From assembly GCF_032854445.1 (NCBI RefSeq), contig NC_088298.1:7675504-7739503 (forward strand): DNA of 64,000 nucleotides, given 5' to 3'. Source of the stretch: Liolophura sinensis (lineage: Eukaryota > Mollusca > Polyplacophora > Chitonida > Chitonidae). Positions 27,992 through 59,194 of the stretch are shown piece by piece. Each line of letters starts with the position of its first letter. Position 1 is the first letter of the stretch. The translations under genes were made by a program, and so were the position numbers. A model generated the notes under the pieces. That model worked only from the letters and a program-made list of their open reading frames with translations, was not told the origin of the DNA and ran no database searches.

Positions 27992-30900
27992 ATGAGGCGA
28001 CCCGTCTTGTACATCCTGATACTTGTGGCGGCCGCCACCACCACCAGCAGCAGCAGCGCGACGACGGCTACCACCAGCAGAAGCAGCAGCCCGACGACAG
28101 CCACAGCTACCAGCAGCAGCAGAACGAAGAGAGACACAACTACCAGCAGCAGCAATCCGGCGGCGGCCACAACTACCAGCATAAGCAGCTCGGCGGCGGT
28201 CAAGGTATCCTCCAGCAGAAGCAGCTCGACGACGACGACAACTACCAGCAGCACCAGCCCAACGACTGCCACAACAATCAGCAGCAGCAGCCCAACGACG
28301 GCCACCACCACCAGCAGGAGCAGTCTGACGACGATTACATTTACCACCAACAGCAGCCCGGCGGCGCCAACAAGTACCCCCAATAGCGGCCCGACGGCGG
28401 TCAAGGTATCATCCAACAGAGGCAGCTCGACGACGGCGGCCACAACAACCAGCAGCAGCAGTCCGGCAGCCGCCAAGGTGTCCTCCAGGAGAAGCACCCC
28501 GACTACGGCCACCACCAACAGCAGCAGCAGCCCGACGACGTCCACAACCAGCACCAGCCGCCCTGCGACGGCCACCAGCAGCAGCAGCAGCAGCCTGATT
28601 GACCAGGGCAACAAGCACCACCGCTGGCACCAAGGTGTCGTCTAGAAGCAGCAGCCCGAGGACGGTCACCATCACTACCAGCAGCAACGGCACGACGACG
28701 GCCCCCACCAGCAACATCAGCCCAACAACACCCACCACCACTAACAGCACCAGCCCGACGGCTGCCAGAACTACTGCCAGTAGCAGCAGGCCGACGACGG
28801 CCACCACCACCACCACCACCAGTGCCAGCACAACGACGGCCACCACCACCAGCAGCACCAGTCCGACGACGGCTACCACCGCTACCAGCACCAGCCCGAC
28901 GGCCGCCAGAACTGCTACCGGCAGGAGCAGCCCGACAACAGTCACCACCCCAAGCAGCAGCAAGCCAACGACGGCAACAATTAGCACTAGCAGCAGTCCT
29001 GTGGGCGCCAAAGTGTCTTTCAGAAGCAGCAGCCCGACCACGGCAACATCTACCAGCAGAAGCAGCTTGACCACTGCCTCAATTGCCAGCAGCACCAATT
29101 TGTCCTCCAGAAGCAGCAGCGCGACTACGTCCAGCAGCAGCAGCCCGATTACAGCCACCACCTCAACCAGTAGCAGCTCGACGACGTCAACAACCAGCAC
29201 CAGCAGCCCGTCGACGGCCACCAGCAGCAGCAGCAACAGCCCGACCACGGCAACAACAACCACCACCAGCAGCAGCTCGACGACGGCAACAACCACTAGC
29301 ATGAGCAGCAGCAGCCCGACGACGGCAACAACCACCAGCAGGAGCAGCCCAACGACAGCCACAACTACCATCAGAATCAGCCCGACGACAGCCACAACTA
29401 CCAGCAGCAGCAGCCCGACGACAGCCACAACTACCAGCAGCAGCAGTCCGGTGGGTGCCAAGGTATCCTCCAAAAGCAATAGCTTTACCACAGCCACCAC
29501 CACCAGCAGCAGCAGCAGGGCGACCACGGCATCAACCACCACCACCAGCAGCAGCCGAAGGACGGTCACAACTACCAGCAGTACCAGTCCGCCGACGGCC
29601 ACAACTACCAGCAGCAGCAGTCAGGCGGGCGCCAAGGTTTCGTCCAAAAGCAACAGCCGAACAACAGCCACAACTACCAGCAGCACCAGCCCGAGGAAAG
29701 CCACAACTACCAGCTGCACCAGTCCGACGACGGCCACAACTACCAGCACCACCAGCCAGAAGACAGCCACAAATACCAGCAGCAGCAGTCCGGTGGGCGC
29801 CAAGGTGTCCTTCAGAAGCAGCAGCCCGGCCATGGCAACATCTACCAGCAGCAGCAGCTTAACGACTGCCACAATTGCCAGCAGCACCAGCCCGAAGACA
29901 GCCACTACTATCAACAGCACTAGCCCGACGACAGCCACAACTACCGTCAGCAGCAGTCCGCCGGCCGCCAATTTGTCCTCCAGAAGCAGCAGCGCGACTA
30001 CGTCCAGCAGCAGCAGCCCGATTACAGCCACCACCTCAACCAGTAGCAGCCTGACGACGTCAACAACCAGCACCAGCAGCCCGTCGACGGCCACCACCAG
30101 CAGCAGCACCAGCCCGAACACGGGAACAAGGACCACCACCAGCAACAGCTCGACGACGGCAAAAACCACTAGCATGAGCAGCAGCAGCCCGACGACGGCA
30201 ACAACCACCAGCAGGAGCAGCCCAACGACAGCCACAACTACCATCAGCATCAGCCCGACGACAGCCACAACTACCAACAGGAGCAGCCCGACGACAGCCA
30301 CAACTACCAGCAGCAGCAGTCCGGTGGGTGCCAAGGTGTCCTCCAAAAGCAACAGCCCGAATTCGACGACCACCACCAGGAGCAGCAGCCCGACAAGGGC
30401 AAAAAGCACCACCACCAGCAGCAGAACTACGACAACAGGAACCACTAGCAGCAGCCGTCCGACGACAGCCACTTCCACCACCAGAAGCAGCAGCCCGACA
30501 ATGGCCACAACTACCACCAGCACCAGTTCAACGATGGCCACAACTACCAGAAGCACAAGCCAGAAGACAGCCAAGGTGTCCTCCAGGAGCAGCAGCCTGA
30601 CTACGGCCACCACCGCCAGCAGCGGCAGCTTTACCACTGCAACAAGCACCACCAATAGCAGCAGCCCGACGACGTCCACAACCAGCAGCAGCAACCCGAC
30701 GACGGCAACAGCCAGCAGCAGCAGCAGCCGAACAACAGCCACAATTACCAGTAGCACCAGCCCGACGACGGCCACCACCACCAGCAACAGGAGGCCGACG
30801 ACGGCCACAACTACCAGCAGCACCAGCTCCACGAGGGCCGCAACCAGCAGGAATACCAGGGCTATGACGGCCACAACTACCAGCAGCACCAGGTCTTTCA

Positions 30901-33900
30901 CGGCCAGAGCTACCCGCATCACCGGCTGGACGAAGGCCACAACTACCAACAGCAGCAGCATCTCGACGACGGCCACAACCAGCAGCAGCACCAGGAATAC
31001 GACGGCCACAACTACCAGCAGCACCAGCCCGATAACTACAACTACTAAGGGCAGCAGTACCGCTGGCACCACGGTGTCGTCTAGAAGCAGCAGCCCGAGG
31101 ACGGCCACCGTCACTACCAGCAGCAACGGCACGACGACGGTCCCCACCAGCAACATCAGCCCGACAACACCGACCACCACTAACAGCACCAGCCCGACGG
31201 CTGCCAGAACTACTACCGCTAGCAGCAGGCCGACGACGGCCTCCACCACCACCACCACCACCAGTGCCAGCACGACGACGGCCACCACCGCTACCAGCAC
31301 CAGCCCGACGGCGGCCAGAACTACTACCGGCAAGAGCAGCCCGACGACAGTCACCACCCCCAGCAACAGCAGCCCAACGACGGCAACAATTAGCACTAGC
31401 AGCAGTCCGGTGGGCGCCAAAGTGTCTTTCAGAAGCAGCAGCCCGACCACGGCAACATCTACCAGCAGCAGCAACTTGACGACTGCCACAATTGCCAGCA
31501 GCACCAGCCCGAAGACAGCCACTACTATCAACAGCACTAGCCCGACGACAGCCACAACTACCGTCAGCAGCAGTCCGCCGGTCGCCAATTTGTCCTCCAG
31601 AAGCAGCAGCGCGACTACGTCCAGCAGCAGCAGCCCGATTACAGCCACCACCTCAACCAGTAGCAGCCCGAAAACGTCAACAACTAGCACCAGCAGCCCG
31701 ACGACCACCACCAGCAGCAGCACCAGCCCGACCACGGCAACAACAACCACCACCAGCAGCAGCTCGACGACGGCAACAACCACTAGCATGAGCAGCAGCA
31801 GCCCGACGACGGCAACAACCACCAGCGGGAGCAGCCCAACGACAGCCACAACTACCATCAGAATCAGGTCGACCACAGCCACAACTACCAACAGGAGCAG
31901 CCCGACGACAGCCACAACTACCAGCAGCAGCAGTCCGGTGGGTGCCAAGGTGTCCTCCAAAAGCAATAGCTTTACCACAGCCACCACCACCAGCAGCAGC
32001 AGCAGGGCGACCACGGCATCAACCACCACCACCAGCAGCAGCCGAAGGACGGTCACAACTACCAGCAGTACCAGTCCGCCGACGGCCACAACTACCAGCA
32101 GCAGCAGTCAGGCGGGCGCCAAGGTTTCGTCCAAAAGCAACAGCCGAACAACAGCCACAACTACCAGCAGCACCAGCCCGAGGAAAGCCACAACTACCAG
32201 CAGCACCAGTCCGACGACGGCCACAACTACCAGCACCACCAGCCAGAAGACAGCCACAAATACCAGCAGCAGCAGTCCGGTGGGCGCCAAGGTGTCCTTC
32301 AGAAGCAGCAGCCCAGCCACGGCAACATCTACCAGCAGCAGCAGCTTGACGACTGCCTCAATTGCCAGCAGCACCAGCCCGAAGACAGTCACTACTATCA
32401 ACAGCACTAGCCCGACGACAGTCACAACTACCGTCAGCAGCAGTCCGCCGGTCGCCAATTTGTCCTCCAGAAGCAGCAGCGCGACTACGTCCAGCAGCAG
32501 CAGCCCGATTACAGCCACCACCTCAACCGGTAGCAGCCTGACGACGTCAACAACCAGCACCAGCAGCCCGTCGACGGCCACCACCAGCAGCAGCACCAGC
32601 CCGACCACGGCAACAAGGACCACCACCAGCAGCAGCTCGACGACGGCAAAAACCCGATTACAGCCACCACCTCAACCAGTAGCAGCCCGACGACGTCAAC
32701 AACCAGCACCAGCAGCCCGTCGACGGCCACCACCAGCAGCAGCAGCAGCCTGACCACGGCAACAAGGACCACCACCAGCAGCAGCTCGACGACGGCAAAA
32801 ACCACTAGCATGAGCAGCAGCAGCCCGACGACGGCAACAACCACCAGCGGGAGCAGCCCAACGACAGCCACAACCACCATCAGCTTCAGCCCGACGACAG
32901 CAACAACTACCAACAGGAGCAGCCCGACGACAGCCACAACTACCAGCAGCAGCAGTCCGGTGGGTGCCAAGGTGTCCTCCAAAAGCAATAGCTTTACCAC
33001 AGCCACCACCACCAGCAGCAGCAGCAAGGCGACCACGGCATCAACCACCACCACCAGCAGCAGCCGAAGGACGGTCACAACTACCAGCAGTACCAGTCCG
33101 CCGACGGCCACAACTACCAGCAGCAGCAGTCAGGCGAGCGCCAAGGTTTCGTCCAAAAGCAACAGCCGAACAACAGCCACAACTACCAGCAGCACCAGCC
33201 CGAGGAAAGCCACAACTACCAGCAGCACCAGTCCGACGACGGCCACAACTACCAGCACCACCAGCCAGAAGACAGCCACAAATACCAGCAGCAGCAGTCC
33301 GGTGGGCGCCAAGGTGTCCTTCACAAGCAGCAGCCCGGCCACGGCAACATCTACCAGCAGCAGCAGCTTGACGACTGCCTCAATTGCCAGCAGCACCAGC
33401 CCGAAGACAGTCACTACTATCAACAGCACTAGCCCGACGACAGTCACAACTACCGTCAGCAGCAGTCCGCCGGTCGCCAATTTGTCCTCCAGAAGCAGCA
33501 GCGCGACTACGTCCAGCAGCAGCAGCCCGATTACAGCCACCACCTCAACCAGTAGCAGCCCGACGACGTCAACAACCAGCACCAGCAGCCCGTCGACGGC
33601 CACCACCAGCAGCAGCACCAGCCCGACCACGGCAACAAGGACCACCACCAGCAGCAGCTCGACGACGGCAAAAACCACTAGCATGAGCAGCAGCAGCCCG
33701 ACGACAGCCACAACTACCAGCAGCAGCAGTCCGGTGGGTGCCAAGGTGTCCTCCAAAAGCAATAGCTTTACCACAGCCACCACCACCAGCAGCAGCAGCA
33801 AGGCGATCACGGCATCAACCACCACCAGCAGCAGCAGCCGAAGGACGGTCACAACTACCAGCAGTACCAGTCCGCCGACGGCCACAACTACCAGCAGCAG

Positions 33901-36900
33901 CAGTCAGGCGGGCGCCAATGTTTTGTACAAAAGCAACAGCCGAACAACAGCCACAACTACCAGCAGCACCAGCCCGAGGAAAGCCACAACTACCAGCAGC
34001 ACCAGTCCGACGACGGCCACAACTACCAGCACCACCAGCCAGAAAACGGCCACAACTACCAGCAGCACCAGTCCGACGACGGCCACAACTACCAGCACCA
34101 CCAGCCAGAAAACGGCCACAAATACCAGCAGCATCAGTCTGGTGGGCGCCAAGGTGTCCATCAGAAGCGACAGCCCGACTACGGCCACCACCACCAGGAG
34201 CAGCAGAATGACCAGGGCAACAAGCACCACCACCAGCCGCAGTCCGACGACAGCAGGAACCACTACCAGCAGCAGCAGCCGTTCGACGACGGCAACAACT
34301 ACTAGCAGCGGCAACAGCCCGACGACGGACATTTCCACCACTAGAGTCAGGAGCCCGTCAACAGCCACAACCACCACCAACAGTATCTACACGACGGCCA
34401 CAACTACCAGCAGCAGCAGTCCGGCGGTTGCCAAGGTGTCATCCAGAAGGAACAGCCTGAAGACGGCCTCAATTACCAGCAGCACCATCGCTACGACGGC
34501 CACAACTACCAGCAGCACCAGCACAACGACCGCCACCACCACCAGCAGCAGCAGCCCGACGACGGCCACAACCACCACCAGCAGCACCACTAGCAGCAGC
34601 AGCAGCCCAGTGGCGGCCAAAACTACTACCAGCAGCAGTCCTTCAGCGGCAACAACTACCAGCATAAGCAACTTGGCGGCTGTCAAGGTATCCTCCCGAA
34701 GAAGCGGCACGACGACTGCCACATCTACGAGCAGTAGAGGCCCGGCGACGGCCACAACCGCGAGCAGTAGCTGCCCGGCGACGGCTATGACTATCAGCAG
34801 CAGCAGACAGGCGGTGGCCAAGGTATCCTCCAGCAGCAGAAACCCGACGAGGGCCACCACCACCACCATAGAAACCAGCAGCAGCAGCCCGGCGGCCGTC
34901 ACCATTACCAGTATTAGGAACTCAACTGCGGCCAAGAGTTTGTTAAGCAGCAGCCCGATGACGGCAACAACTACCAACAGCACCATCGCTACGACGGCCA
35001 CAACCACCACCAGCAGCAACCCGACGACGGCCACAACCACCACCACCAACAGCAGCCCGTCGGCGACCACCAGCAGCAGCATCAGCCCTTCGGCGGCCAC
35101 AACTACCAGCTCGGCGGCTGTCAAGGTATCCTCCAGCAGGAGCAGCCTGATGACGGCGGCAAAAACTACCAGCAGCAGAGGCCCGACAACCGCTACAACT
35201 ACGATCAGCAGCGGCCCAGCGACGGCCATGACTACCAGCAGCAGCAGCCGGGCGGTGGCCAGGGCGTCCGCCAGCAGCGGCCCTACGAGGAGCACCACTA
35301 CAACCGCCACCACGAACAGCCCTGCGGCGGACACAACTATTAGTATCAGCAGCTCAACAGCGGCCAAGGTGTCCTTAAGCAACAGCCCGGGGACGGCCTC
35401 AACTACAAGCAACACCATGGCTACGACGGCTACAACTACCAGCACCACCAGCACAACAACTGCTACAACCACCAGCAGCAGCAACCCAAGGATGGCCATA
35501 GCCACCACCACCACCAGCAGCAGCAGCCCGGCGGCGGGGTCCACCACCAGCAGCAGCAGCCTTTCGGCGGCCACAACTACCAGCATAAGCAGCTCGGCGG
35601 CTGTCAAGGTATCCTCCAGCAGAAGCAGCTCGACGACGACGACAACTACCAGCAGCACCAGCCCAACGACTGCCACAACAGTCAGCAGCAGCAGCCCAAC
35701 GACGGCCACCACCGCCAGCAAGAGCAGCCTGACGACGGTCACATTTACCAGCAACAGCAGCCCGGCGGCACTAACAAGTACCACCAATAGAGGCCCGACG
35801 GCGAGCAAGGTATCATCCAACAGAGGCAGCTCGACGACGGCGGCCACAACAACCAGCAGCAGCAGTCTGGCAGGCGCCAAGGTGTCCTCCAGGAGAAACA
35901 CCCCGACTACGGCCACCACCACCAGCAGCAGCAGCCCTACCACTGCAACAACCACCAACAGCAGTAGCAGCCCGACGATGTCCACAACCAGCACCAGCAT
36001 CCCGTCGACGGCCACCAGCAGCAGCAGCGGCATCAACAGCAGCATGTTCACGGCAACAACAACCACCAGCAGCAGTAGCAGCAGAATGACCAGGGCAACA
36101 AGCACCACCAGCAGCAGCCGTCCGACGACAGCAGAAATCACTAGCAGCAGCAGCAGCCGTTCGACGACGGGAACAACTACTAGCAGCGGCAACAGCCCGA
36201 CGACGGACATTTCCACCACTAGAGGCAGGAGCCCGTCAACAGCCACAACCACCACCAGCAGCATCCATACGACGGCCACAACTACCAGCAGCAGTCCGGC
36301 GGCCGCCGAGGTGTCTTCCAGAAGCAGCAGCCCGACTACGGCCAGCAACAGCAGCAGGAGCAGCAGCAGCAGCAGCCCGATCACAGCCACCACCTCAGCC
36401 ATTAGCAGCCCGACGACGTCCACAACCACCAGCAGGAGCAGCCCAACGACAGCCACAACTACTGCCAGCACCAGCCCGACGACAGCCACAACTACCAACA
36501 GCAGCAGCCCGAGGGCCGTAAAATCTACCAGCAGCACCAGCTTGACGGCGGCAACAACTACCAGCAGCAGTAGTCCGGTGGGCGCCAAGGTGTCCTCCAA
36601 GAGCAGTAGATTTACCACAGCCACCAGCAGCAGCAGCAGCAGCAGCGCAACCACGGCATCAACCACCAGCAGCAGCAGCAGCCGGACGACGTTCACAACT
36701 ACCAGCAGCACCAATCCGACGACGGCCACAACTACCAGCACCACCAGCCAGAAAACGGCCACAAATACCAGCAGCAGTAGTCCGGTGGGCGCCAAGGTGT
36801 CCACCAGAAGCGACAGCCCGACTACGGCCACCACCACCAGGAGCAGCAGAATGACCAGGGCAACAAGCTCCACCACCAGCCGCCGTCCGACGACAGCAGG

Positions 36901-39542
36901 AACCACTACCAGCAGCAGCAGCCGTTCGACGATGGCAACAATTACTAGCAGCGGCAACAGCCCGACGACGGACATTTCCACCACTAGAGGCAGGAGCCCG
37001 TTACCAGCCACAGCCACCACCAGCAGCATCCATACGACGGCCACAACTACCAGCAGCAGCAGTCCGGCGGCCGCCAAGATGTCTTCCAGAAACAGCAGCC
37101 CGACTACGGCCAGCAACAGCAGCAGGAGCAGCAGCAGCAGCCCTATTACAGCCACCACCTCAACCAGTAGTAGCCCGACGACGTCAACAACCAGCACCAG
37201 CAGCCCGTCGACGGCCACCAGCAGCAGCAGCAGCAGTCCGACCACGGCAACAAGGACCACCATCAGCAGCAGCTCGACGACGGGAACAACCACTAGCATG
37301 AGCAACAGCAGCCCGACGACGGCAACAACCACCAGCAGGAGCAGCCCAACGACATCCACAACTACCAGCAGCACCAGCCCGACGACTGCCACAACTACCA
37401 ACAGGAGCAGCCCGAGGACCGTCACAACTACCAGCAGCACCAGCCTGACGACGGGAACAACTACCAACAGCAGCAGCCCGACAACAGCCACAACTACCAG
37501 CAGTAGCGGCCCAGCGACGGCCATGACTACCAGCAGCAGCAGCCAGGCGGTGGCCAGGGCGTCCGCCAGCAGCGGCCCTACGAGGAGCACCACTACAACC
37601 GCCAGCACGAACAGCCCTGCGGCGGACACAACTATTAGTATCAGCAGCTCAACAGCGGCCAATGTGTCCTTAGGCAACAGCCCGGGGACTACAAGCAACA
37701 CCATGGCTACGACGGCTACAACTACCAGCAACACCAGCACAACAACTGCTACAACCACCAGCAGCAGCAACCCAAGGATGGCCATAGCCACCACCACCAC
37801 CAGCAGCAGCAGCCCGGCGGCGGGGTCCACCACCAGCAGCAGCAGCCTTTCGGCGGCCACAACTACCAGCATAAGCAGCTCGGCGGCTGTCAAGGTATCC
37901 TCCAGCAGAAGCAGCTCGACGACGACGACAACTACCAGCAGCACCAGCCCAACGACTGCCACAACAGTCAGCAGCAGCAGCCCAACGACGGCCACCACCG
38001 CCAGCAAGAGCAGCCTGACGACGGTCACATTTACCAGCAACAGCAGCCCGGCGGCACTAACAAGTACCACCAATAGCGGCCCGACGGCGAGCAAGGTATC
38101 ATCCAACAGAGGCAGCTCGACGACGGCGGCCACAACAACCAGCAGCAGCAGTCTGGCAGGCGCCAAGGTGTCCTCCAGGAGAAACACCCCGACTACGGCC
38201 ACCACCACCAGCAGCAGCAGCCCTACCACTGCAACAACCACCAACAGCAGTAGCAGCCCGACGATGTCCACAACCAGCACCAGCATCCCGTCGACGGCCA
38301 CCAGCAGCAGCAGCATCAACAGCAGCATGTTCACGGCAACAACAACCACCAGCAGCAGTAGCAGCAGAATGACCAGGGCAACAAGCACCACCAGCAGCAG
38401 CCGTCCGACGACGGCAACAACCACCAGCAGGAGCAGCCCAACGACATCCACAACTACCAGCAGCACCAGCCCGACGACTGCCACAAGTACCAACAGGAGC
38501 AGCCCGAGGACCGTCACAACTACCAGCAGCACCAGCCTGACGACGGGAACAACTACCAACAGCAGCAGCCCGACAACAGCCACAACTACCAGCAGCAGCA
38601 GTCCGGTGGGCGCCAAGGTTTCCACCAGAAGCTACAGCCCGACTACGGCCACCACCACCAGGAGCAGTAAAATGACCAGGGCAACAAACACCACCACCAG
38701 CAGCAGTCCGACGACAGCAGTAACGACTACCAGCAGCAGCCGTTTGACGACGGAAACAACCAGTAGCAGTGGCAACAGCCCGACGACGGACATTTTCACC
38801 ACTAGAGGCGGGAGCCCGTCAACAGTCACAACCACCACCAGCAGCAGCAGTCCGGCGGCCGCCAAGGTGTCTTCCAGGAGCAGCAGCCCGACTACGGCCA
38901 GCAACAGCAGCAGGAGCAGCAGCAGCAGCCCGACTACAGCCACCACCTCAACCAACAGCAGGAGCGGCAGGAGCCCAAAGACAGCCACAACTACCAGCAG
39001 CACCAGCTCGATGACGGCCACAACTGCCAGCAGCAGCAGCATCTCGACGACCGCCACAACCAGCAGCAGCACCAGGCTTCCGACTGCCACAACTACCAGC
39101 AGCACCAGCCCGACGGCTGCGAGAACTACTACCGCCAGCACCAGCCCGACGACGGCCACCACCACCAGTTCCAGCACGACGACGGCCACCACCGCCACCA
39201 CCACCACCAGCCAGACGACGACCACCACCACCACTACCTCCAGCCCGACGGCGACCACAACTACTACCAGCAGCAGCAGCCGCACGACGGCGACCACCAC
39301 CAGCAGCAGCAGGCCGACAACGGCAGCCACCACCACCAGTAGCACCATCCCTACAACAGCCACAACTACCAGCAGCAGCAGTCCGGCGGCCGCCAAGGTG
39401 TCCTCCACGAGGAGCAGCCCGACGACGGCCAACACCACAAGCAGCAGGAGCCCGACCACGGCCACCACCACCAGCAGCAGCATCCCGACGACGGCTAAGG
39501 CGTTTACTAAATCTGAACAGGGCATCTACAATCCGGCGAAAG
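27992..39542 (+). CDS. Gene B exon 1: signal peptide and giant Ser/Thr mucin domain
   Basis: The ATG (context ACAACAATGAGG, A at -3) opens MRRPVLYILILVAAATTTSS, a short basic n-region and hydrophobic core typical of a signal peptide. Residues 44-47 are RTKR, a furin-type site. The rest is Ser, Thr and Ala with Pro and spaced Lys/Arg (units like SSPTTATTTSSS and VGAKVSSRSS), so dense O-glycosylation is expected; cysteine is almost absent. The exon ends at GCGAAAG before GTAAGAGC (39543), phase 1, after the less biased FTKSEQGIYNPAK. As written the frame changes near 28599 and 32653, so translation from this ATG would stop at 28645 (217 residues). The S/T frame resumes downstream and is back in the starting frame. 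Role as a gel-like or membrane-bound mucin is inferred from composition and exons 2-6. Confidence 0.78.
28590..28605 (+). other. Frame lesion 1 in exon 1: extra T
   Basis: The sequence reads CTGATTGACCAGGGCAACAA. Five other copies of this unit in the exon (about 34207, 36087, 36849, 38369 and 38669) read ATGACCAGGGCAACA without the extra T. The added base sends the reading frame to a TAG at 28643. It may be a real null mutation or a base-calling error. Confidence 0.85.
29455..33790 (+). repeat. Large internal repeat units of exon 1, four copies
   Basis: A block beginning GGTATCCTCCAAAAGCAATA / GGTGTCCTCCAAAAGCAATA recurs with starts near 29460, 31947, 32969 and 33743. The steps are 2487, 1022 and 774 bp. 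The first and last are multiples of three. The middle one becomes so (873) when the 149-bp duplication is subtracted. Blocks are nearly identical over more than 400 bp, which indicates recent unequal exchange. Confidence 0.8.
32504..32801 (+). repeat. 149-bp tandem duplication in exon 1 (frame lesion 2)
   Basis: CCCGATTACAGCCACCACCT occurs at 32504 and again at 32653, and the next 149 bases repeat with few differences, up to GACGGCAAAAACC. At the first end GGCAAAAACC joins CGATTACAG, where the other copies read GGCAAAAACCACTAGCATG. Since 149 is not a multiple of three, the frame moves by two. With the extra T at 28599 the total shift is three, so the final frame equals the starting frame. Confidence 0.85.
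35211..36130 (+). repeat. 0.9-kb duplicated block of exon 1, copy 1
   Basis: Begins GCGGCCCAGCGACGGCCATG and continues to GCAGCCGTCCGACGAC. It is nearly identical to 37506-38412. Its part from about 35566 to 36020 also matches 28150-28590 at the start of the exon. Confidence 0.85.
37506..38412 (+). repeat. 0.9-kb duplicated block of exon 1, copy 2
   Basis: Matches 35211-36130. It lacks 9 bases after GGGGACT (about 37690) and 3 bases near 38311, both whole codons, so the Ser/Thr frame is kept. Confidence 0.85.
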
Positions 39543-39694
39543 GTAAGAGCAATTTGAAAAACATTGTACTCTCATTGATGTTGACCAAAATTATGATCTA
39601 CAGGCTTCGTTTTGTACATGTGGCTAATTTTGACGTTCTACGCTAAACTGAGACTAAGCTGTGTCGACGGCACTGAATGCATATGACTTACATG

Positions 39695-39890
39695 ACCAGT
39701 GTACGACAGCACAGCACAATATCCCAGGAAACTCCCACCAATGCGGTCGCGGTGATTTAAAGTCCAGCGTATGCTGGCTTCCTCTCCGTGGGAATGTCTG
39801 TCAACAACCTGCAAATGGTCGTGGGATTCCTCCGGGTTCTGCCCGGTTTTCTCCCACCATAATGCTGGCCATTGTAGTGTAAGTGAAATT
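39695..39890 (+). mobile_element. SINE-A copy, sense, in gene B intron 1
   Basis: CCACCAATGCGGTCGCGG, GCTGGCTTCCTCTCCGTGG, GGTTTTCTCCCACCATAATG and TAGTGTAAGTGAAATTC; the tail is lost. Confidence 0.78.
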
Positions 39891-39894
39891 CATG

Positions 39895-40680
39895 GCCGGC
39901 TTATCATAGTATACTGACCTTAGAGTCTGTCCAATTTGTATGAATATACACCTATTTATTACTATTTTCAATATATATGAAAAACCTGGGGACTATGATG
40001 AATGCTGTAGTTTAGTGGCCTGTTAGTAGTTATTTTTTGTGTACTGAGCCATTTATATCTTGATAAAATCAGGCGACTGATAAAACGAAATTAGTCACAG
40101 AGCCAAGGTCATATGTAGCTCCCCAAAGACAATAAGCTTCAATCACATACTAGGTAAAAATAATTAACAAAGAAAGATTATAAAAAAAACACATACACAC
40201 ACGTACACACGCACACAAAATGGCAAAATGAAGGTAACAACACACCAAATAAAAGCGTTATTGATTAACACCTTTAAATTGCCCAAATGATTAACACTGA
40301 TGCTATTTTAATAACACGCTCATGTTGTTATGATAACGTTAGCGTTAAATGCTAAACAGATGAAATTGAAAATTCTATTACCCTTCGATTCCTTTTTATT
40401 ACATACAACGCACTGCTTGACGCTATGCCAAGTGCACATTATCTAAGCCGTTAGATACCCCCCATCACGAGACAGAAGCGTTTGACTTCTGGACGGGTCT
40501 ATTGTAGTTCTATGGGTGGATAGAGGTTGTCGTTTACATTGAATAAAGCAGACGACAAATATAAACAAAGAAACAAAGTGGCTATTTTTTCTGTTGGAGC
40601 GAACGTTTATTTTAAATAAGAAAGGTATCAGGTTACAGATAATTTAAAGCCCATAGGGACGTTTGAATGCTACACAAAAG
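39895..40680. other. Intron 1 spacer; small CA-rich tract
   Basis: ACACATACACACACGTACAC at about 40190-40216 is a short CA-type microsatellite. Nothing else is recognised. Confidence 0.4.
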
Positions 40681-40688
40681 AGATAATA

Positions 40689-41125
40689 ATGGTTTCGCGA
40701 AAATTCTTATTTTTTACATACAGACCTGATAATTCTTCCTCCGAGTCTTTCTTTCAGCGGCCTCTGCTAAACGCCCCAGTTGTCCACAAACCATGGTATG
40801 GCAATCAACCAATGGGTCTAAAAATATCGGATCCATGATGTCTGATATTTCCCACGACGCAAAACTTAGCCGCCGGTACACGAATCACTGCGTCCGGGCT
40901 ACGACAGCCACAGTTCTTGCTGATGCCGGGGTTTCTGTGATGGACGTTATGTCTGTGACAGGCCACGGCAGTGAATCCAGTGTAGGGTGTTATGTCACCA
41001 ATAGCAATACAATCCAAATGGCAAAAGTCCAGTTTTCAGTCACACCTCAAAGTTTTGGAGGAATGTTCAACAATGCAACAATAAATAACAGCAGAGTTCA
41101 CATCAACTTCATATCCTCTGGATAG
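40689..41125 (+). pseudogene. Crypton-type tyrosine recombinase, C-terminal catalytic part, frameshifted
   Basis: From 40689 one frame reads KFLFFTYRPDN, SESFFQRPLLNAPVVHKPWY and GNQPMGLK; after a run of five A (40820-40824) the next frame reads NIGSMMSDISHDAKLSRRYT, then NHCVRATTATVLADAG and VMSVTGHGSESSVGCY. N-H-x-x-R-A-T and G-H-x-S-E-S-S are the R and H-x-x-R/K type boxes of tyrosine recombinases of the Crypton/KIAA1958-like group. The second Arg of the usual HxxR is not obvious, and the catalytic Tyr may be the one in VGCYV. One missing base in the A-run explains the break. The upstream part of the enzyme is absent. Confidence 0.8.
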
Positions 41126-41129
41126 CAGA

Positions 41130-42340: not shown

Positions 42341-42343
42341 AAT

Positions 42344-42522
42344 AGAAATAATGTTCGCGTAAGGGTAGTCTAACGGTAGTTTTACATCAAATCGATGTGG
42401 AAGAGTTTACAAATTTTGAGGTGTTCATCAGTAAAATGGTCTAATGGTTAAAAATATAAACTCTTCCACATCGATTTGATGTAATACTACCGTTAGACTA
42501 CCCTGACGCGAACATTATTTCT
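42344..42522. mobile_element. Foldback element 3 with 66-bp near-perfect arms
   Basis: The left arm 42344-42409 (AGAAATAATGTTCGCGTAAG... to GGAAGAGTTTA) is the reverse complement of 42457-42522 with two or three mismatches. The loop is 47 bases. The pairing may extend outward (GGTAATAG at the left, CCATTACC at the right). It fits a short foldback MITE or a strong hairpin; no second copy is in the window. Confidence 0.85.
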
Positions 42523-42524
42523 TA

Positions 42525-45262: not shown

Positions 45263-45267
45263 ATCTT

Positions 45268-45520
45268 CGGGTCTCCGTGGCGCAGTGGTTAGCGTGCTAG
45301 TGACTTAGGTGCCGCTCACCAGAGTGGTCATCTAGGGTTCAAACCCTGATCAGGCTGGCTTGATCTCTGGTCTAACGCGGGAAGGTCGGCCTGTAACCTG
45401 TAGATGGTCATGTGTTTCCTTCGCGATCTGTCTGGTTTCCTCCCACCATAATACTGGCCATCGTATAAGTGAAATATTTTCAATACGGCATAAAACGCCA
45501 GTCAAATAAAGAAATATACA
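45268..45520 (+). mobile_element. SINE-A, most complete copy, with both Pol III boxes
   Basis: GGGTCTCCGTGGCGCAGTGG gives a tRNA-like 5' end with an A-box (TGGCGCAGTGG), and AGGGTTCAAACCCTGATC a good B-box about 55 bases on. The body carries CGGGAAGGTC, TTTCCTCCCACCATAATAC, CGTATAAGTGAAATATTTTC and GGCATAAAACGCCAGTC, and ends AATAAAGAAATA. This copy sets the orientation used for all others. Confidence 0.9.
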
Positions 45521-45524
45521 TGTA

Positions 45525-46060
45525 TTACCCACTGCCTGATCGAGGGTTGATACAGGATTTGCTTCGTCATTCTCTCCCGCCTCTTTGTGAACATATTGTA
45601 TTTTGTGAAGCAGAACCTCATGTGCTACTGAAACAATCAAACCACAAAACACTTTCCATTTCCATCACACAATCAAATCAGAATGTTTACATTGCAACTG
45701 ATTATCTTCTCTTGGATTACTTAAACATTCTTTCACATGCTAAATACATATTTGTATTACTTTTGGAGGGGGGAGGGTGATGCGGAAAACCAGTTAGAGT
45801 CGAAAAGAACAATAGAAGACAGGAAACTATTCCAATTCTACTGAACTATCCTTGTTTTGCACATGGAAATTTTGTAAATGCATTTCCACCTTTTAGCTTT
45901 TTGTCTTTTTACAACTACAGGTTGCTTGGGCATGACGTGATAAAGCAATAAGCAGCCGTGTGAGGATAATATCTGGCTGGTATGATTCTCAGTCCAAGCA
46001 CTATGACAGCATTGGAACTACGTTGCTGTTTGATATGACAATGTGAGACAACAAATACAT
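45525..46060. other. Intron 1 spacer; nothing certain
   Basis: A frame at 45469-45780 is open but starts inside the SINE tail and has no family resemblance. Confidence 0.3.
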
Positions 46061-46338
46061 ACCAGGATGGAGTGGGTCACTAAACTTGTTGAAGGTAAGT
46101 ATGGATGTGAGTAAAACTACCTGTTTTATTTGTTTGGCTAAAATCCCATTGATTCCTGTTTACACCACATGACTTGTGTGTTGATTTAATATTAAATCAT
46201 AAAAATAAGATGCAATCAATTCTTGCGTGGAAGAATGACTCGAATCCTATGTTTGTACAGTATGCATCCTGCGTACATGTAGAGAGGTAAGTAGCTCTCC
46301 GACGAGCAAAGCTATTAAGTCGTGTGAACTTTTTTCAG

Positions 46339-46452
46339 GACAGTGGCACCATGAGGGAAATACTGCTTATTGAAAAGCTTGAGACACTCGTCATGAAGGA
46401 TCGTGGACAAGGGGAGAAAGTAAAGCCTGTTCTTCCATTACCCAGGCAAGTG
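46339..46452 (+). pseudogene. Possible coding remnant, unknown family
   Basis: After TTTTTTCAG the sequence GACAGTGGCACC opens a frame reading MREILLIEKLETLVMKDRGQ then GEKVKPVLPLPR, followed by GCAAGT, a GC-type donor. The 46066-46094 stretch MEWVTKLVE before GTAAGT could precede it, but joining them gives a stop after 20 codons. The function is not recognised. Confidence 0.25.
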
Positions 46453-46705
46453 CAATTTTCATATACACTCTTCTATTATTAAGTATTATTATTAATTGTT
46501 AACCTTTAAGTGGAGAGCAAGCAAAGTCCCATTGACTTTTGCTAAATGCTGACCTCGGTGTTTAAATAATACAACAACCGCATATGGATAATGGAGTGTG
46601 TCCAGATAGCATGCTTACTTTCAAATCTGACATACAAATGTGTATGGGGGAATAACTCTTTACATATAACTCGCACAATACAGTTTTTAATTCGATATTA
46701 AGGGG

Positions 46706-46887
46706 TGAAGTCCAGCTCATGCTGGCTTCCTCTCCGGCCGCACGTGGGAAGGTCTTCCAGCAACCTACGGATGGTCGTGGGTTTCCCCGGGCTGTGCCTG
46801 GTTTCCGCCCACCATAATGCTGGCCGCCGTCGTATAAGTGAAATATTCTTGAGTGTGGCGTAAAATACCAATCAAATAAATAAATAA
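46706..46887 (+). mobile_element. SINE-A, recent 5'-truncated insertion with target duplication
   Basis: The element from TGAAGTCCAGCTCATGCTGG to ATCAAATAAATAAATA is flanked by ATATTAAGGGG at 46695-46705 and again at 46888-46898, a perfect 11-bp target site duplication. The body is close to the family consensus. Confidence 0.92.
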
Positions 46888-47439
46888 ATATTAAGGGGAG
46901 GTATTGTGAGAGTGAAGAAAACTGGTGTCGATGACGGTGTCATGTTATTGCCTGGGTAAGCTTTTTGTTATTGTCAGAATGGCCAGGAAGGGTTTTATGT
47001 GTTTATGTGTTTATGTGTAAATTTGGTTATATTTACACAAATCTTAAATGATTCCTGAAACTGTTTTGAAAAAGTAGACTTCTTAAATTAGAGGTTTGAT
47101 TTGATTTTTATTTTAATGTCAATGATCTCACACGTTTGCCACTATTCCGCCGGTCTGTTTTTTATGAAAAAAAAATGGTAAGCATAGATTATTCCAGTAT
47201 GAAACGTCCACTGTTTTTCTCTCGGTTTTGCACATTAGCACAAATTATTTATCTGATGTTATTATGACAAAGTTCTTCCAGTCTCTAGGTGACATGAGAC
47301 GTGGGTTCAGTATCATTCTCAGACAGGGAATTTTCAAGATTTCCCTGCTCCATTATTCTAAGGGACTTTAAAAATTTGCTGGAAACCATATTCCTTCCAT
47401 CAAAATGAAAAGAAAAATTTGCCAATATAATTTGTCAAA

Positions 47440-47545
47440 GGTCGGTGGTTTACTCTGGTATCCTCCATCCATAATACTGTAGTTCCCATCGTGCAAGTGA
47501 GAACTTCTTGAGGGTGGTGTAAACCGACAATCAAATACTAAATCA
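47440..47545 (+). mobile_element. Old SINE-A 3' part, sense
   Basis: GGTATCCTCCATCCATAATA, CCATCGTGCAAGTGAGAAC, TTCTTGAGGGTGGTGTAAAC and GACAATCAAATACTAAATC are worn family blocks. Confidence 0.6.
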
Positions 47546-47802
47546 ATATAACGAAGTTATGCCTTGATTTTTGGTCCTCTATTGGTTGTCTCCTTGTATG
47601 AAATTGCTCAGCTTGGGATTTATTTTAGGATTTAAACAACTGAAAATGGACATTCATGGTGTCATGCAAGAGCGGATTTAACATTAAAGGCAGCTTGTAC
47701 TAAAACATAGAGGTGGAGGATCAGTGATTTTCCCGAAATGCAGCAAAGTGAATGTCTGACCATAAACGTGAGGCACTTATTTATAATTGTTTTATTCTGC
47801 AG

Positions 47803-48090
47803 ATTCAGCAGTTGGATGCAGTTTCGAAGAACCTTTACAGTGCACTCTTGACACCTCCATCTCTGTGAATTTTCCTGCCGTGATGACGCCTTTAAATGTT
47901 CCTCTGTTCTCGGTGATGGAGAATTCATCTTTGCAAACACGTCAAGTGTCTTTGACAGCCTCGTTCTACTCATTGCTGTGTACTATGTTTTCGATATGTC
48001 ATATCCAGAGATATATGCTACTTTTCTGGGTCTACTGCAGCATTGGGTGCTGGAAGACCCGTTACCGAAAGGAAATGCACCAGCTGGGTA
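47803..48090 (+). pseudogene. Possible coding remnant with a hydrophobic helix, frameshifted
   Basis: From the acceptor TTCTGCAG one frame reads IQQLDAVSKNLYSALLTPPS and stops at TGA (about 47866). The next frame continues CRDDAFKCSSVLGDGEFIFA, then SLVLLIAVYYVFDMSYPEIY and LGLLQHWVLEDPLPKGN to TAA at 48088. The last block, LLIxxYYVFxxxYP followed by LQHxxLED, resembles the C-termini of uncharacterised invertebrate proteins I have seen, but I cannot name the family. The frame break suggests a relic. Confidence 0.35.
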
Positions 48091-48290
48091 AAATTTTCTG
48101 TAATAGTTGATTTGAGCATCATGAGACACGCATTTAAAAGGCATTTTAAATGCTAACACGGTAAAAAAGTAGTTCTGTGACTTCATTTTTATTCCTTATT
48201 AGTTGTTTACACAGTGGATACTATCACATGACAAGCTAAATAAAATCACCTGAGTGTTTCATTCTCTAAAATATACAAATGAAGGTTCAG

Positions 48291-48419
48291 GGGCCCGTTT
48301 CACAAAGCGTAAGTCACGTTATGTGCACGTATTTTCCATCGCAACCAATATTGCAGTTATCGCGTCGCTATGGTAGTTACGTGAACGTAGCGATATGTGC
48401 GCTTTGCGAAACGGGGCCC
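48291..48419. mobile_element. Foldback element 4 (GGGCCCGTTTC ends)
   Basis: Left end GGGCCCGTTTCACAAAGCG and right end CGCTTTGCGAAACGGGGCCC are near-perfect inverted repeats. Inner segments also pair in part (GTTATGTGCACGT with ACGTGAACGTAGC). The length of 129 bp and lack of coding fit a small MITE. A target duplication is not certain. Confidence 0.8.
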
Positions 48420-48785
48420 AGGTTTTAGGGTAAACTTTGACGACAGATAATCTGGTTAAGTTTCAAACACGCAGTTGATGTTACATTTCCAAATTTAACA
48501 CAGAGATACGTTTGGCACTACATGTAAGTACTTATATAGAAAGATAGAATTGTATGGATGACTTGAATCAGTATTGCTGAATCAGAAACCTGCCTTGTTA
48601 AGCATCATTAATTTGCGTTCTGAATTCTGAATTTATATTCAGAATTATACAGGAGAATGTATTTGCAAATTTATAGAAAATGCTATTTTTTTTATTAAAT
48701 ATGAAAATTTAATGTATCATGTTTTAAAATGCAGGTCAGTTTCGTTGAACTATTGGTGAACTCAGTTGTCTGTCAAATATATGTG

Positions 48786-48787
<2 letters not shown>

Positions 48788-48869
<82 letters not shown>
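48788..48869. repeat. (AT)n microsatellite, about 40 repeats
   Basis: Uninterrupted alternating A and T. Confidence 0.98.
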
Positions 48870-48870
<1 letters not shown>

Positions 48871-48874
48871 CGCC

Positions 48875-49510
48875 ACGTTTTGGTGAAAACATAAGGCTGC
48901 TCCAAACAATGTGTTGACCAATGCCAGGTTGTGCTAAATCTGAATTTTGATCAGCAAGCAAACCCTTTGTTTTAATGTCAATGTTAATGTTCATGAAAAA
49001 CTTGTCGGTATATCTTTTACTGTGATTTAGTTGAAGGATGAATCATTTCTTGTTAAGTACCAGACTTACAGAATACTAAAGTGCCAGATAGATGTGTACA
49101 TTCGAGTTTTTAGTAACTTGGAATAAACATACATCAAATCGTTAATGTGTGTTTCTGCTTTTTGTAAAGTTCGTCAACAATGAAATGGTTTTGAAGTAAT
49201 GTTCACACTTGGTATCCTTGTGAAAGGCTGGGGAATGTGAAATCCATCACTGTATATTTGTATGTCATTAAAATACCATCATCAATTTTGCAGCGTTTGT
49301 TTCTAAACGCCTGTGCATCTAATAACATGTTTATACGTTGACTTTGTGGATGAATAACATGTTGAAGCGTTAACTAAGTGTTACACACAAGTCAGCGTGT
49401 GTTATCATTTAACACTTAAACATGTTGACACCTTTTAATTTCATGCGTTAGCAAATCAGTCTTGTTTAAATGCATTTAAGTTTTGATTCAGTGTTACAGA
49501 AACGTGTTAA
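48875..49510. other. Intron 1 spacer; nothing recognised
   Basis: No coding signal. GTTAATGTTAAC-type words recur (TTAACACTTAAACATGTTGAC), without clear unit structure. Confidence 0.3.
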
Positions 49511-49525
49511 TAATGGCGTTATTTT

Positions 49526-49711
49526 ATTTATCTATTTATTTATTTATTTGATGGATGTTTTACGCCGTATTCAAGAATATTTCACATATACGAGGGCGGC
49601 CAGCATTAAGGTTGGAGGACACAGAGCAGAGCCCGGAGGAAATCTATGACCATCCGCAAGTTACTGCCAGACCTTCCTACGTACGACCGGAGAGGAGGCC
49701 AGCATGATCTG
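49526..49711 (-). mobile_element. SINE-A copy, antisense, with probable target duplication
   Basis: Reversed tail TTTATCTATTTATTTATTTA, TTTTACGCCGTATTCAAGAA, GGCGGCCAGCATTAAGG and GAGGCCAGCATGATC. TGGCGTTATTTT on the left and TGGCTTTATTTT on the right are a candidate 12-bp target duplication with one mismatch. Confidence 0.82.
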
Positions 49712-50037
49712 GTGGCTTTATTTTGATAACACTTTATTTTTTGTGACAGCGGGTAATCCATCGTCTTTCGAATCGGCATTATACTTGCCTCAGTTTTTGT
49801 TTTTCCTGGATTATGTAAAAAATAACTAACATTTTAAATTTTGACTATGTGTCGGTAAAGTTGGAATTAAATCATCCCCAAAGAGACTGTGTGCTTAGTT
49901 TCAACGACAAATACTTAGTTGCATAGTTACATACTGACAGCATACAGGTTTTACCAGCTTGATTCCTATTGGGTTTGGTAATGTTCGTCAAAAAATGAAT
50001 GTGTGTTACCTTTGTGAATGTCCTTGTTATGAAACCT

Positions 50038-50212
50038 GCTTGACTGGTGCTAGTATGATGTGTCCTGCTTGATTGGTGCTAGTATGATGTGTGCTGCTTG
50101 AATGGTGCTAGTATGATGTGTCCTGCTTGATTGGTGCTAGTATGATGTGTGCTGCTTGAATGGTGCTAGTATGATGTGTCCTGCTTGATTGTTGATAGTA
50201 TGATGTGAGCTC
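50038..50212. repeat. 29-bp tandem array with alternating variants
   Basis: Six units of TGCTTGATTGGTGCTAGTAT + GATGTGTCC. Odd and even units alternate TCC/TGC and ATT/AAT, so the real unit is a 58-bp dimer. Confidence 0.93.
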
Positions 50213-50320
50213 ACTGCGAATGCCACTGAACAGGCAAACGATATGTTGCAGGCTACAAGAACAGTTAATTTTATCGCCGACCTTTCATCAATTTACTTTT
50301 TAAACTGTTGAATGTTTCAG

Positions 50321-50409
50321 TCGAATATGGTTTGAAGTTGACCATTTCCATCAACGTAGTATTCAACGTGAGCAAGAAAAAAGAGTATACCATGGATTTT
50401 GAGAACAAG
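50321..50409 (+). CDS. Gene B exon 2: start of SEA domain
   Basis: The acceptor is AATGTTTCAG and the donor GTAATG at 50410. Two bases finish the codon left by exon 1 (G + TC = Val), then 29 codons read EYGLKLTISINVVFNVSKKK and EYTMDFENK, phase 0 at the end. Alternating hydrophobic residues and the DFENK end fit the first strands and helix of SEA domains. N-V-S is a possible N-glycosylation site. Confidence 0.72.
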
Positions 50410-50833: not shown

Positions 50834-51010
50834 TCAAGTCCGGCTCATGCTGGCTTCCTCTCCGGCCGTTGGTAGGAAAGTCCTTCAGTAACCTGCGGAT
50901 GGTCGTAGGTTTTTCCCGGCTCTGCCCGGATTCCTCCCACCATAATGCTGATCGCCGTCGTGAGTGAAATATTCTTGATTACGGCGTAAAACACCAATAA
51001 TATAAATAAA
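50834..51010 (+). mobile_element. SINE-A copy, sense, in gene B intron 2
   Basis: GTTCAAGTCCGGCTCATGCT, CTTCCTCTCCGGCCGTTGG, ATTCCTCCCACCATAATGC and ACGGCGTAAAACACCAATAA, tail TATAAATAAATAG. Confidence 0.85.
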
Positions 51011-51348: not shown

Positions 51349-51407
51349 CTGACCATCGCTTACCAGAACATCCCTGGGTTCATCAAAGTGACAATACTTC
51401 ATGTAAG
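51349..51407 (+). CDS. Gene B exon 3: SEA domain core before the cleavage site
   Basis: After CTGTTTCAG, 19 codons and two bases read LTIAYQNIPGFIKVTILHVR (the last codon is split with exon 4). The donor is GTAAGA at 51408. AYQNIPGF followed by a beta strand matches the SEA pattern ahead of the cleavage loop. Phase 0 in and phase 2 out join exactly with exons 2 and 4. Confidence 0.75.
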
Positions 51408-53309: not shown

Positions 53310-53500
53310 ACCAGGAAGTGTGATGTGTGATCACGAGGTCAAATTCGACGCCATCAAAGTTCAGAAAGATGGGAACATGGTTGACGTCACCCACATCATC
53401 GAGGATGAGGTGCTGGAGAAAGGATTACCGTATCTCAGGAATGTTACCATTGCTAATGGCACTGTGAATGAAAAAAAGTTCAAGAAATCATTAAAGAGAG
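53310..53500 (+). CDS. Gene B exon 4: SEA domain with PGSV self-cleavage motif
   Basis: The acceptor is ACTATACAG and the donor GTAAAT at 53501. One base completes the Arg of exon 3, then the sequence reads PGSVMCDHEVKFDAIKVQKD, a long acidic helix (HIIEDEVLEKGLPYL) and NVTIANGTVNEKKFKKSLKR. G-S-V after two strands is the SEA autoproteolysis site, where the chain breaks between G and S and the halves stay bound. NVT and NGT are possible N-glycosylation sites. SEA length over exons 2-4 is about 110 residues, as usual. Phase 2 in, phase 1 out. Confidence 0.82.
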
Positions 53501-53624: not shown

Positions 53625-53878
53625 GTCCTCCGTGGTGGGTAGCGTGCAAACGCGGCGCAACGACCCAGGAGCCTATCACCAATTTGGTCCCTGTGAGTTC
53701 AAGTCCAGCTCATGCTGGTTTCCCCTTCAGGCCTACGTGTCAAGGTCTGTCAGCAACCTTCGGATGGTCGTGGGTTTTCCCCGGGCTCTGCCCGGTTTCC
53801 TCCCACCATCATGCTGGCTACCGTCGTATAAGTGAAATATTTTCGAGTATGGCGTATAACTCAAATAAATAAATAAAA
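53625..53878 (+). mobile_element. SINE-A copy, sense, near full length, in gene B intron 4
   Basis: GGGTCCTCCGTGGTGGGTAG (head), CGACCCAGGAGCCTATCACC, GTGAGTTCAAGTCCAGCTCA (B-box), GGTTTCCTCCCACCATCATG, TAAGTGAAATATTTTCGAG, tail CTCAAATAAATAAATAAAA. Confidence 0.88.
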
Positions 53879-53964: not shown

Positions 53965-54151
53965 CTAGGAGACATGCTATTCTCCACACGTGTAGTGTAG
54001 TGACACTTGACTGCGCTCCTGGTTTCAACTGCAACTCGTCAGACAGTGCAAAACCTGTCTGTCTGTCAGACTGTGAGACGGAAACCGGCCGTGAGAAATG
54101 CGGAAGTCATGGCACATGCACTCTGAGGAGTAACGGGAATATGACATGCGT
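53965..54151 (+). CDS. Gene B exon 5: Cys-rich segment and first part of EGF domain
   Basis: After AATAATTTCAG two bases complete an Ala codon. The peptide starts RRHAILHTCSVVTLDC and ends CGSHGTCTLRSNGNMTC with GT of the next codon; the donor is GTAAGT at 54152. EGF cysteines 1-4 lie here with spacings of 8, 5 and 9; the four preceding cysteines may pair among themselves. NSS and NMT are possible N-glycosylation sites. Phase 1 in, phase 2 out. Confidence 0.82.
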
Positions 54152-54825: not shown

Positions 54826-55017
54826 TTGCACCGAGACTCCGAAGGAAATTTACAGTGGACACGACTGCAGTATTCGGGTGGAGAAATTCCGTTTAGAAAA
54901 GAATAAAATAATCGCCATTGGAGTCGGAGCTGGAGGAGGCGTTCTCCTCGTTTTCATAATTATCATCATTATCCTGATTCGCAAACTACGGAAGCCCAAG
55001 AACAGAAACAGATCCAA
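54826..55017 (+). CDS. Gene B exon 6: end of EGF, transmembrane helix, stop-transfer
   Basis: After CCACATCAG one base completes Val. CTETPKEIYSGHDC supplies EGF cysteines 5 and 6 (12 residues apart). A linker (SIRVEKFRLEKNK) leads to the helix IIAIGVGAGGGVLLVFIIII continuing IILI, then RKLRKPKNRNRSK, a positive inner flank. This predicts a type I membrane protein with the mucin outside. The donor is GTGAGT at 55018; phase 2 out. It is the clearest exon of the gene. Confidence 0.88.
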
Positions 55018-55102
55018 GTGAGTAGAGAAACTTTCGGTATGCATTGGCGGTAAAGATTCAAATTTAATTGAACATAGTTTTCTTAAAAAAACACAAGAAT
55101 TA

Positions 55103-55286
55103 CGCCACCAGTTTCCCAGCAAAACGTCACCAGTTTCCCTGCAAAACGTCACCAGTTTCCCAGCAAAACGTCACCAGTTTCCCAGCAAAACGTCACCAGT
55201 TTCCCTGCAAAACGTCACCAGTTTCCCAGCAAAACGTCACCAGTTTCCCAGCAAAACGTCACCAGTTTCCCTGCAAAACGTCACCT
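55103..55286. repeat. 22-bp tandem array in a 66-bp higher-order pattern
   Basis: Eight units of CGTCACCAGTTTCCCAGCAA + AA. Units with CAGCAAAA and CTGCAAAA follow the order CAG, CTG, CAG, CAG, CTG, CAG, CAG, CTG, a repeating triplet. It lies 85 bp past the exon 6 donor. Confidence 0.95.
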
Positions 55287-55350
55287 AGTTAGAAATGAAC
55301 AATAGACTACCGAGCTTTGACTCGAATTATTTTTGGCGGGATAGGTAATT

Positions 55351-55699: not shown

Positions 55700-55790
<91 letters not shown>
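55700..55790. repeat. (TA)n microsatellite, about 45 repeats
   Basis: Uninterrupted alternating T and A. Confidence 0.98.
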
Positions 55791-55792
<2 letters not shown>

Positions 55793-56238: not shown

Positions 56239-56392
56239 GCGTAGAGGATTTGAGGAGGTGGGAAACTTCTCGTCAAGGGAGTTAACCAGCATCCGAGTAT
56301 CAGACCTGGAGTTACGGGACTCAGAGCAGAAGGACACAAACCCTGACAGGACGGCTATCAATGGGAGATATAATGCTGCATGTACTAATAAG
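56239..56392 (+). CDS. Gene B exon 7: cytoplasmic tail, membrane-proximal
   Basis: After TTTTTTTAAG one base completes Lys, then 51 codons from RRGFEEVGNFSSRELTSIRV to GRYNAACTNK, phase 0 at the GTGGGA donor (56393). The segment is highly charged (DLELRDSEQKD) with no fold that I recognise. Its size and phases match gene A 895-1051. GRYN is a possible Tyr phosphorylation site by inference only. Confidence 0.74.
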
Positions 56393-57914: not shown

Positions 57915-58055
57915 CCTTATTCCGGTGAGTATGGTGCTACAGTAGACTCGAGATGGAATATGCACACTCCAAGTTCACACAGCTTCGCTGATGACCAAAG
58001 CCTGGACGAGGCAAGATTGGAACAGAACTTGCGCACGCTACAGCCAATAGGAAAG
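57915..58055 (+). CDS. Gene B exon 8: conserved cytoplasmic tail
   Basis: After CTGTATAG, 47 codons in phase 0 run from PYSGEYGATVDSRWN through FADDQSLDEARLEQN to LRTLQPIGK, with donor GTGGGT at 58056. The end motif L-x-x-N-L-x-x-L-Q-P-I-G-K is shared with gene A exon 3085-3231. Y-S-G-E-Y holds two Tyr in an acidic context. Confidence 0.78.
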
Positions 58056-59150: not shown

Positions 59151-59155
59151 TTCAG

Positions 59156-59194
59156 TGCATCATAGAGAGGCCTAAATTCTCGTTTCAAATATAG
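59156..59194 (+). CDS. Gene B exon 9: last 12 residues and stop
   Basis: After TATTGTTTCAG twelve codons read CIIERPKFSFQI and end at TAG (59192-59194). Phase 0 fits exon 8. IERPK is shared with gene A at 3422-3454, and both lie straight after the QPxG exon. Confidence 0.62.
   Translation, partial: CIIERPKFSFQI

Follow-up and report, generated by a model that had tools for sequence, protein, structure and literature searches.

A probable giant membrane mucin gene in the chiton Liolophura sinensis, with an 11-kb repeat exon expanded in frame and a tandem sibling

We analysed a stretch of 64,000 nucleotides (the window) from the chiton Liolophura sinensis, positions 7,675,504 to 7,739,503 of the forward strand of contig NC_088298.1, whose segment 27992-59194 had been taken, in a preliminary description made from the letters, for a membrane mucin gene of nine exons. 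Our preferred reading, to which we give a probability of roughly two in three, is that a gene of nine exons occupies this segment and encodes a giant mucin that crosses the membrane once, and that at least one further family member stands in tandem with it on the same strand. Its parts, with the evidence used for each in brackets, are as follows.

27992-28036 (+): start codon and signal-sequence-like stretch MRRPVLYILILVAAA (translation; hydropathy 2.68 over 12 residues)
27992-39542 (+): exon 1, serine/threonine (Ser/Thr)-rich repeat exon, ending AAAG/gtaagagc in phase 1 (donor rank 9 of 3,660; 11-residue period; 65% Ser+Thr; more than one open frame)
28595-28605 (+): frame break 1, where the Ser/Thr frame moves by one base, at a repeat-block junction (reading frames; switch of best-matching block)
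32646-32655 (+): frame break 2, where the Ser/Thr frame returns, at the edge of duplicated blocks of 97-98% identity (reading frames; block matches)
39543-50320 (+): intron 1, 10,778 bp, containing an integrase-like fragment (splice sites; Pfam)
50321-50409 (+): exon 2, SEA-like region part 1 (junctions; SEA comparison)
51349-51407 (+): exon 3, SEA-like region part 2 (junctions; SEA comparison)
53310-53500 (+): exon 4, SEA-like region part 3, with the PGSV codons at 53311-53322 (junctions; SEA comparison)
53965-54151 (+): exon 5, cysteine-rich linker and start of the EGF-like module, from 54072 (junctions; Pfam; cysteine spacing)
54826-55017 (+): exon 6, last part of the EGF-like module (up to 54868), then membrane helix at 54908-54979 and basic stop-transfer stretch (junctions; hydropathy)
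56239-56392 (+): exon 7, cytoplasmic tail (junctions; likeness to the sibling exon 895-1051 not significant alone)
57915-58055 (+): exon 8, cytoplasmic tail (junctions; like the sibling exon 3085-3231)
59156-59194 (+): exon 9, tail end IERPKFSFQI and stop (junctions; like the sibling exon 3422-3454)

All eight of the GT-AG junctions proposed earlier, with phases 1, 0, 2, 1, 2, 2, 0 and 0, are present in the sequence. When joined, exons 2-9 encode 349 residues whose sole stop is the terminal one, whereas the two alternative frames contain 22 and 23 stops. None of 4,805 placements gave an open joined frame when the lengths and spacings of exons 2-9 were slid along the window, which is a modest test, as the placements were not required to have splice sites and these exons had been picked for openness. 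Scored with weight matrices, all eight donors are among the best 2.2% of the window's 3,660 GTs; of the eight acceptors, the best lies in the top 1.2% of its 3,904 AGs and the poorest in the top 33.5%. The link between exons 1 and 2, over the 10.8-kb intron, is predicted from a donor that scores strongly, an acceptor of middling rank and phases that match.

Searched against the window by tblastn, the tail of the mucin gene hit a second site at 3136-3255 (E 0.002). It belongs to a sibling gene at the left edge, readable for its last three exons, the remainder lying to the left of the window.

895-1051 (+): sibling exon 7-like, entering in phase 2 and leaving in phase 0 (position and phase; sequence likeness alone weak)
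3085-3231 (+): sibling exon 8-like (tblastn E 0.002; local score 61; 15 of 47 residues identical)
3422-3454 (+): sibling last exon, FTIERPKLRL and stop (tblastn and shuffle comparison)

The three exons have the same order, strand and phases as exons 7-9. The score of exon 8 against its counterpart was reached by none of 3,000 shuffles, that of exon 9 by 14 of 3,000, and that of the joined exons 7-9 again by none of 3,000 (BLASTP pair E 1e-8). Identical bases between the two versions of exon 8 number 22, 30 and 20 of 47 at codon positions 1, 2 and 3, respectively; the motif IERPK is common to both proteins, and both end in a hydrophobic-x-hydrophobic pattern (FQI here, LRL in the sibling). The likeness to the sibling therefore provides independent support for exons 8 and 9 as real coding exons, and indicates that the locus belongs to a gene family. 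Viral contigs were also searched for relatives of the tail, giving three pattern matches and no relative by tblastn.

The preliminary description had placed about 3,800 Ser/Thr-rich residues in one exon, and exon 1 does contain 3,847 of them (65% Ser+Thr), although only as three frame pieces. Read in these pieces it has the long Ser/Thr-rich repeat of a SEA-type membrane mucin, with 5.8% proline, two cysteines, 55 N-glycosylation sequons and a main repeat period of 11 residues (identity 0.413 versus 0.231 expected). Over 3,849 codons the Ser/Thr frame is free of stops, compared with 55 and 69 stops in the other frames, a count to be read in the light of pieces that were selected as open and repeat copies that are not independent. 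A gapped self-alignment of the whole exon ran across all the repeats and was uninformative; ungapped self-matches (at least 80% identity over at least 90 nt) were used instead, and all 407 of them stay in the Ser/Thr phase throughout the three pieces. Of 100 gaps separating repeat copies, 76 have a length divisible by three; of the remaining 24, by our own count, break 2 accounts for 9, break 1 for 1, and groups of gaps that compensate one another locally for 14. Given the matches in phase and the gap lengths, the frame was held through a long duplication history, with just two departures; the repeat exon expanded through frame-keeping internal duplications. Mismatches between copies number 1166, 3737 and 3641 at codon positions 1, 2 and 3, the first position being avoided, and the 1,207 codons that differ between copies comprise 339 synonymous changes, 160 Ser-Thr swaps and 708 other changes.

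At the beginning of the exon, the stretch that starts with ATG 27992 is a predicted signal peptide, and RTKR, already pointed out in the preliminary description, is found at residues 44-47. The frame of this ATG is open upstream as far as 27840 (stop at 27839) and acceptor-like AGs are present at 27939 and 27978; the ATG could therefore sit inside an exon that starts earlier. Two blocks within the repeat exon, 35402-36041 and 37688-38327, are 99.06% alike, representing either a recent duplication or an assembly duplicate. The repeat string of the exon gave no match in a literature search.

Exons 2-4 encode a region that we call SEA-like on the basis of comparisons with known SEA domains. When this region was aligned with the SEA domain of MUC1, the local score was reached by 9 of 5,000 shuffles and the global score by none of 2,000; a BLASTP comparison of the pair gave E 5e-4 over 75 residues with about 27% identity. 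The alignment covers nearly the whole domain, with RPGSV common to both and in register. A profile built from seven SEA domains gave 10.8 bits; 2 of 3,939 scored shuffles, and none of the 351 open reading frames of the window, did as well.

The PGSV motif, the six cysteines of the EGF-like module with spacing 8, 5, 9, 1 and 12, and the membrane helix are each present, as had been described. The EGF-like module scored 54 against a stretch of human MUC17, reached by 11 of 4,000 free shuffles and by 81 of 4,000 with the cysteines fixed; this comparison is a lead only. The membrane helix has a Kyte-Doolittle mean of 3.08 over 19 residues and is single and close to the C-terminal end, as is characteristic of this type of mucin. 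A search of NCBIfam returned one irrelevant match (E 0.13).

A similar layout is that of the vertebrate MUC3 cluster (MUC3A, MUC3B, MUC12 and MUC17). As described in PMC9578598, its members share a signal, a huge one-exon Ser/Thr repeat, a SEA or SEA-like domain, an EGF or EGF-like module, a helix and a tail, with giant exons (15,873 bp in MUC3A and 39,267 bp in MUC3B) and genes in tandem on one chromosome. The chiton gene shares this order of parts, with a SEA-like region and an EGF-like module, as well as the giant exon and the tandem arrangement, but differs in that its SEA-like region is missed by Pfam, its motif is PGSVMC, its signal sequence lies inside the repeat exon and its repeat has 5.8% proline; moreover, the same paper describes a class I PDZ end for the cluster, as opposed to FQI and LRL here. 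The preliminary description had found a single coding exon of 11.5 kb unusual, a view that we have dropped: one big repeat exon is the usual mucin layout, both in the MUC3 cluster and according to an excerpt of PMC1552070, where the repeat domain is said to sit in one large exon in all mucins previously described.

With MUC1 the chiton protein shares RPGSV and the aligned SEA-like stretch, but MUC1 has GSVVV (PMC9564314, in excerpt), has no EGF module, and is only about 27% identical over the 75 residues aligned. HEG, compared by description only, resembles it in having a mucin-like domain, EGF and a membrane helix, and differs in being described without SEA in the excerpt of PMC1552070. The sea anemone mucin1-like SEA proteins, likewise compared by description only, are also non-vertebrate and have a signal, Ser/Thr-rich low-complexity regions, SEA and a membrane helix, whereas EGF is not described for that set in the excerpt of PMC9080433. 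A literature search for SEA-domain mucins in molluscs, which did not cover the spelling 'mollusk', gave no match.

Several observations weigh against the nine-exon mucin gene, and they are considered here together with the alternatives to which they lend themselves. The frame of ATG 27992 hits TAG at 28643 and contains 27 stops through 32531; the Ser/Thr reading is open in the next frame at 28599-32751, and then in the first frame again at 32534-39644. Exon 1 thus switches frame twice and is not the single 11.5-kb coding frame proposed earlier, and because of the two frame changes the single protein of about 4,200 residues cannot be encoded by the sequence as given. If both breaks were real, the gene would be broken in this individual or species and its protein would stop after 217 residues. 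Such a loss would agree with the presence of the breaks in the sequence and with their location where repeat blocks meet, sites at which genuine unequal exchange could produce them too, but we consider it unlikely: the rest of exon 1 and the joined tail are open, when an old pseudogene should carry more stops, and the breaks are of opposite sign and restore the frame required at the donor. The offset of the best-matching block changes from +8643/+9726 to +2439 at break 1 and from +1022 to +873 at break 2, and the blocks flanking break 2 are 97-98% alike (31699-32654 versus 32721-33676, and 29144-30223 versus 32653-33732). The two opposite breaks are more likely to be assembly joins, or an allele produced by recent out-of-frame recombination, than the result of old gene loss; mis-joined repeats or such recombination are the best account of them, and the data at hand fit either. 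An intron spanning break 1 was also considered and is unlikely, the top donor in 27992-28645 scoring 0.46 versus 3.2-6.5 for the accepted donors; for a candidate intron across break 2, donors scoring 4.72 are present.

The link over intron 1 bears on whether there is one gene or two. The acceptors of exon 2 (top 23%) and exon 5 (top 34%) are weak, the hexamer AATAAA lies twice a short way downstream of the mucin exon, at 40248 and 40542, and the region behind the last exon, 59195-60600, has neither this hexamer nor ATTAAA. The Ser/Thr exon could accordingly end alone as a secreted mucin-like chain, with a read-through stop at 39644, and exons 2-9 could form a shorter SEA/EGF-like receptor starting in the 10.8-kb gap. 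The length of the gap, the modest acceptor of exon 2 and the two AATAAA sites all speak for this arrangement, which we nevertheless hold to be quite improbable, given that the donor of the mucin exon ranks 9th of 3,660 with a phase 1 that fits exon 2, that the repeat fades to the non-repetitive AFTKSEQGIYNPAK ahead of this donor, and that the open reading frames scanned in the gap (a minority of all) gave no recognised domain except the integrase-like fragment. Also on the negative side, the likeness of exon 7 to the sibling exon 895-1051 does not attain significance by itself, its score being reached in 361 of 3,000 shuffles, and in the repeat the 708 of 1,207 other changes, together with the mismatch pattern, indicate that what is constrained is the frame and the Ser/Thr content rather than the exact sequence. 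The EGF-like module gave only matches under the cut-off in the Pfam search that had been proposed for it (EGF_Teneurin, E 0.03; EGF_2, E 0.34). The corresponding search for SEA failed altogether, the family model PF01390 having no match at E up to 10 with the tail or with exons 2-4 alone, nor at E up to 1 with exon 4 alone, and matches to PDB sequences include no SEA chain. A profile of six PDB-checked SEA members gave 7.8 bits (reached by 10 of 3,903 shuffles and none of the 351 open reading frames) and a MUC1-only profile 8.7 bits (reached in 3 of 3,774 shuffles and in a single one of the 351 open reading frames). Genuine SEA domains, each omitted from the seven-member profile in turn, score 30-112 bits, versus 7-13 here. 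Moreover, PGSVMC departs from the GSVVV of MUC1, and an AlphaFold model of exon 4 alone was uninformative (predicted local distance difference test 45.9, predicted template modelling score 0.25). These results leave room for a stretch ahead of the EGF-like module that is not SEA, the protein then being a mucin-like EGF receptor without self-cleavage, like HEG, which the excerpt of PMC1552070 describes with mucin-like, EGF and membrane parts and without SEA. We think this rather unlikely in view of RPGSV at the matching place in MUC1 and of an alignment that extends over nearly the entire domain. Of the "SEA with PGSV" described earlier, then, the PGSV is there, while the SEA is unsupported by Pfam and resembles known SEA domains weakly. 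The membrane-mucin architecture stands as the best reading, backed at exons 8-9 by the tandem sibling, and qualified by the frame breaks and by the weakness of the SEA assignment.

If the locus does encode a giant membrane mucin, the signal sequence would route the chain into the endoplasmic reticulum, and the repeat domain of approximately 3,850 Ser/Thr-rich residues, with its period of 11 residues, would, judging from its composition, be densely O-glycosylated and make up an extended, stiff brush. The SEA-like region may fold and probably breaks between the G and S of PGSV, and the two resulting chains might stay joined non-covalently and part under force. The EGF-like module, the membrane helix and the sibling-type cytoplasmic tail would anchor the protein, and the hydrophobic-x-hydrophobic ends (FQI, LRL) could bind PDZ-type partners.

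We regard the protein as a probable, divergent new member of the SEA/EGF membrane mucins, which lacks two of their marks, namely one open frame and a match to the SEA family model. More tentatively, and as a possibility that we find doubtful, the locus could belong to a non-vertebrate cluster in which genes for giant SEA/EGF membrane mucins are arranged in tandem, with a layout like that of the MUC3 cluster of vertebrates and a SEA domain diverged past the family models, in which case the type would predate the vertebrates or have arisen twice. For an invertebrate to possess a SEA/EGF membrane mucin belonging to a tandem family would mean that the type is older than thought, or that there was convergence, and that standard SEA models miss such cases. 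The locus also illustrates how an 11-kb repeat exon has been kept in frame across many internal duplications.

Scans of the window with Rfam and for tRNAs gave no matches each. Intron 1 carries, at 40733-41122 (+), the integrase-like fragment (Pfam Phage_integrase, E 5.4e-6, 26.7 bits versus a cut-off of 27.1), probably from a mobile element, as well as (AT)40 at 48789-48868. A minisatellite of 8.5 copies of a 22-base unit directly follows exon 6 (55102-55290), and (TA)44 lies at 55701-55789. Beyond the gene, on the opposite strand, are a fragment of a reverse transcriptase of the long interspersed nuclear element (LINE) type at 63440-64000 (-) (RVT_1, E 2.6e-14) and a LINE-type zf-RVT-like fragment at 61615-61917 (-) (E 0.0014, below the cut-off). 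An interspersed element that looks like a short interspersed nuclear element has many copies, recognised by eye, in both orientations (for example 480-740, 39720-39900, 50835-51010 and 53640-53860). Finally, 8540-10770 is an array in which a 45-base unit recurs about 50 times with 76% matches, and which generates long chance open reading frames on both strands.

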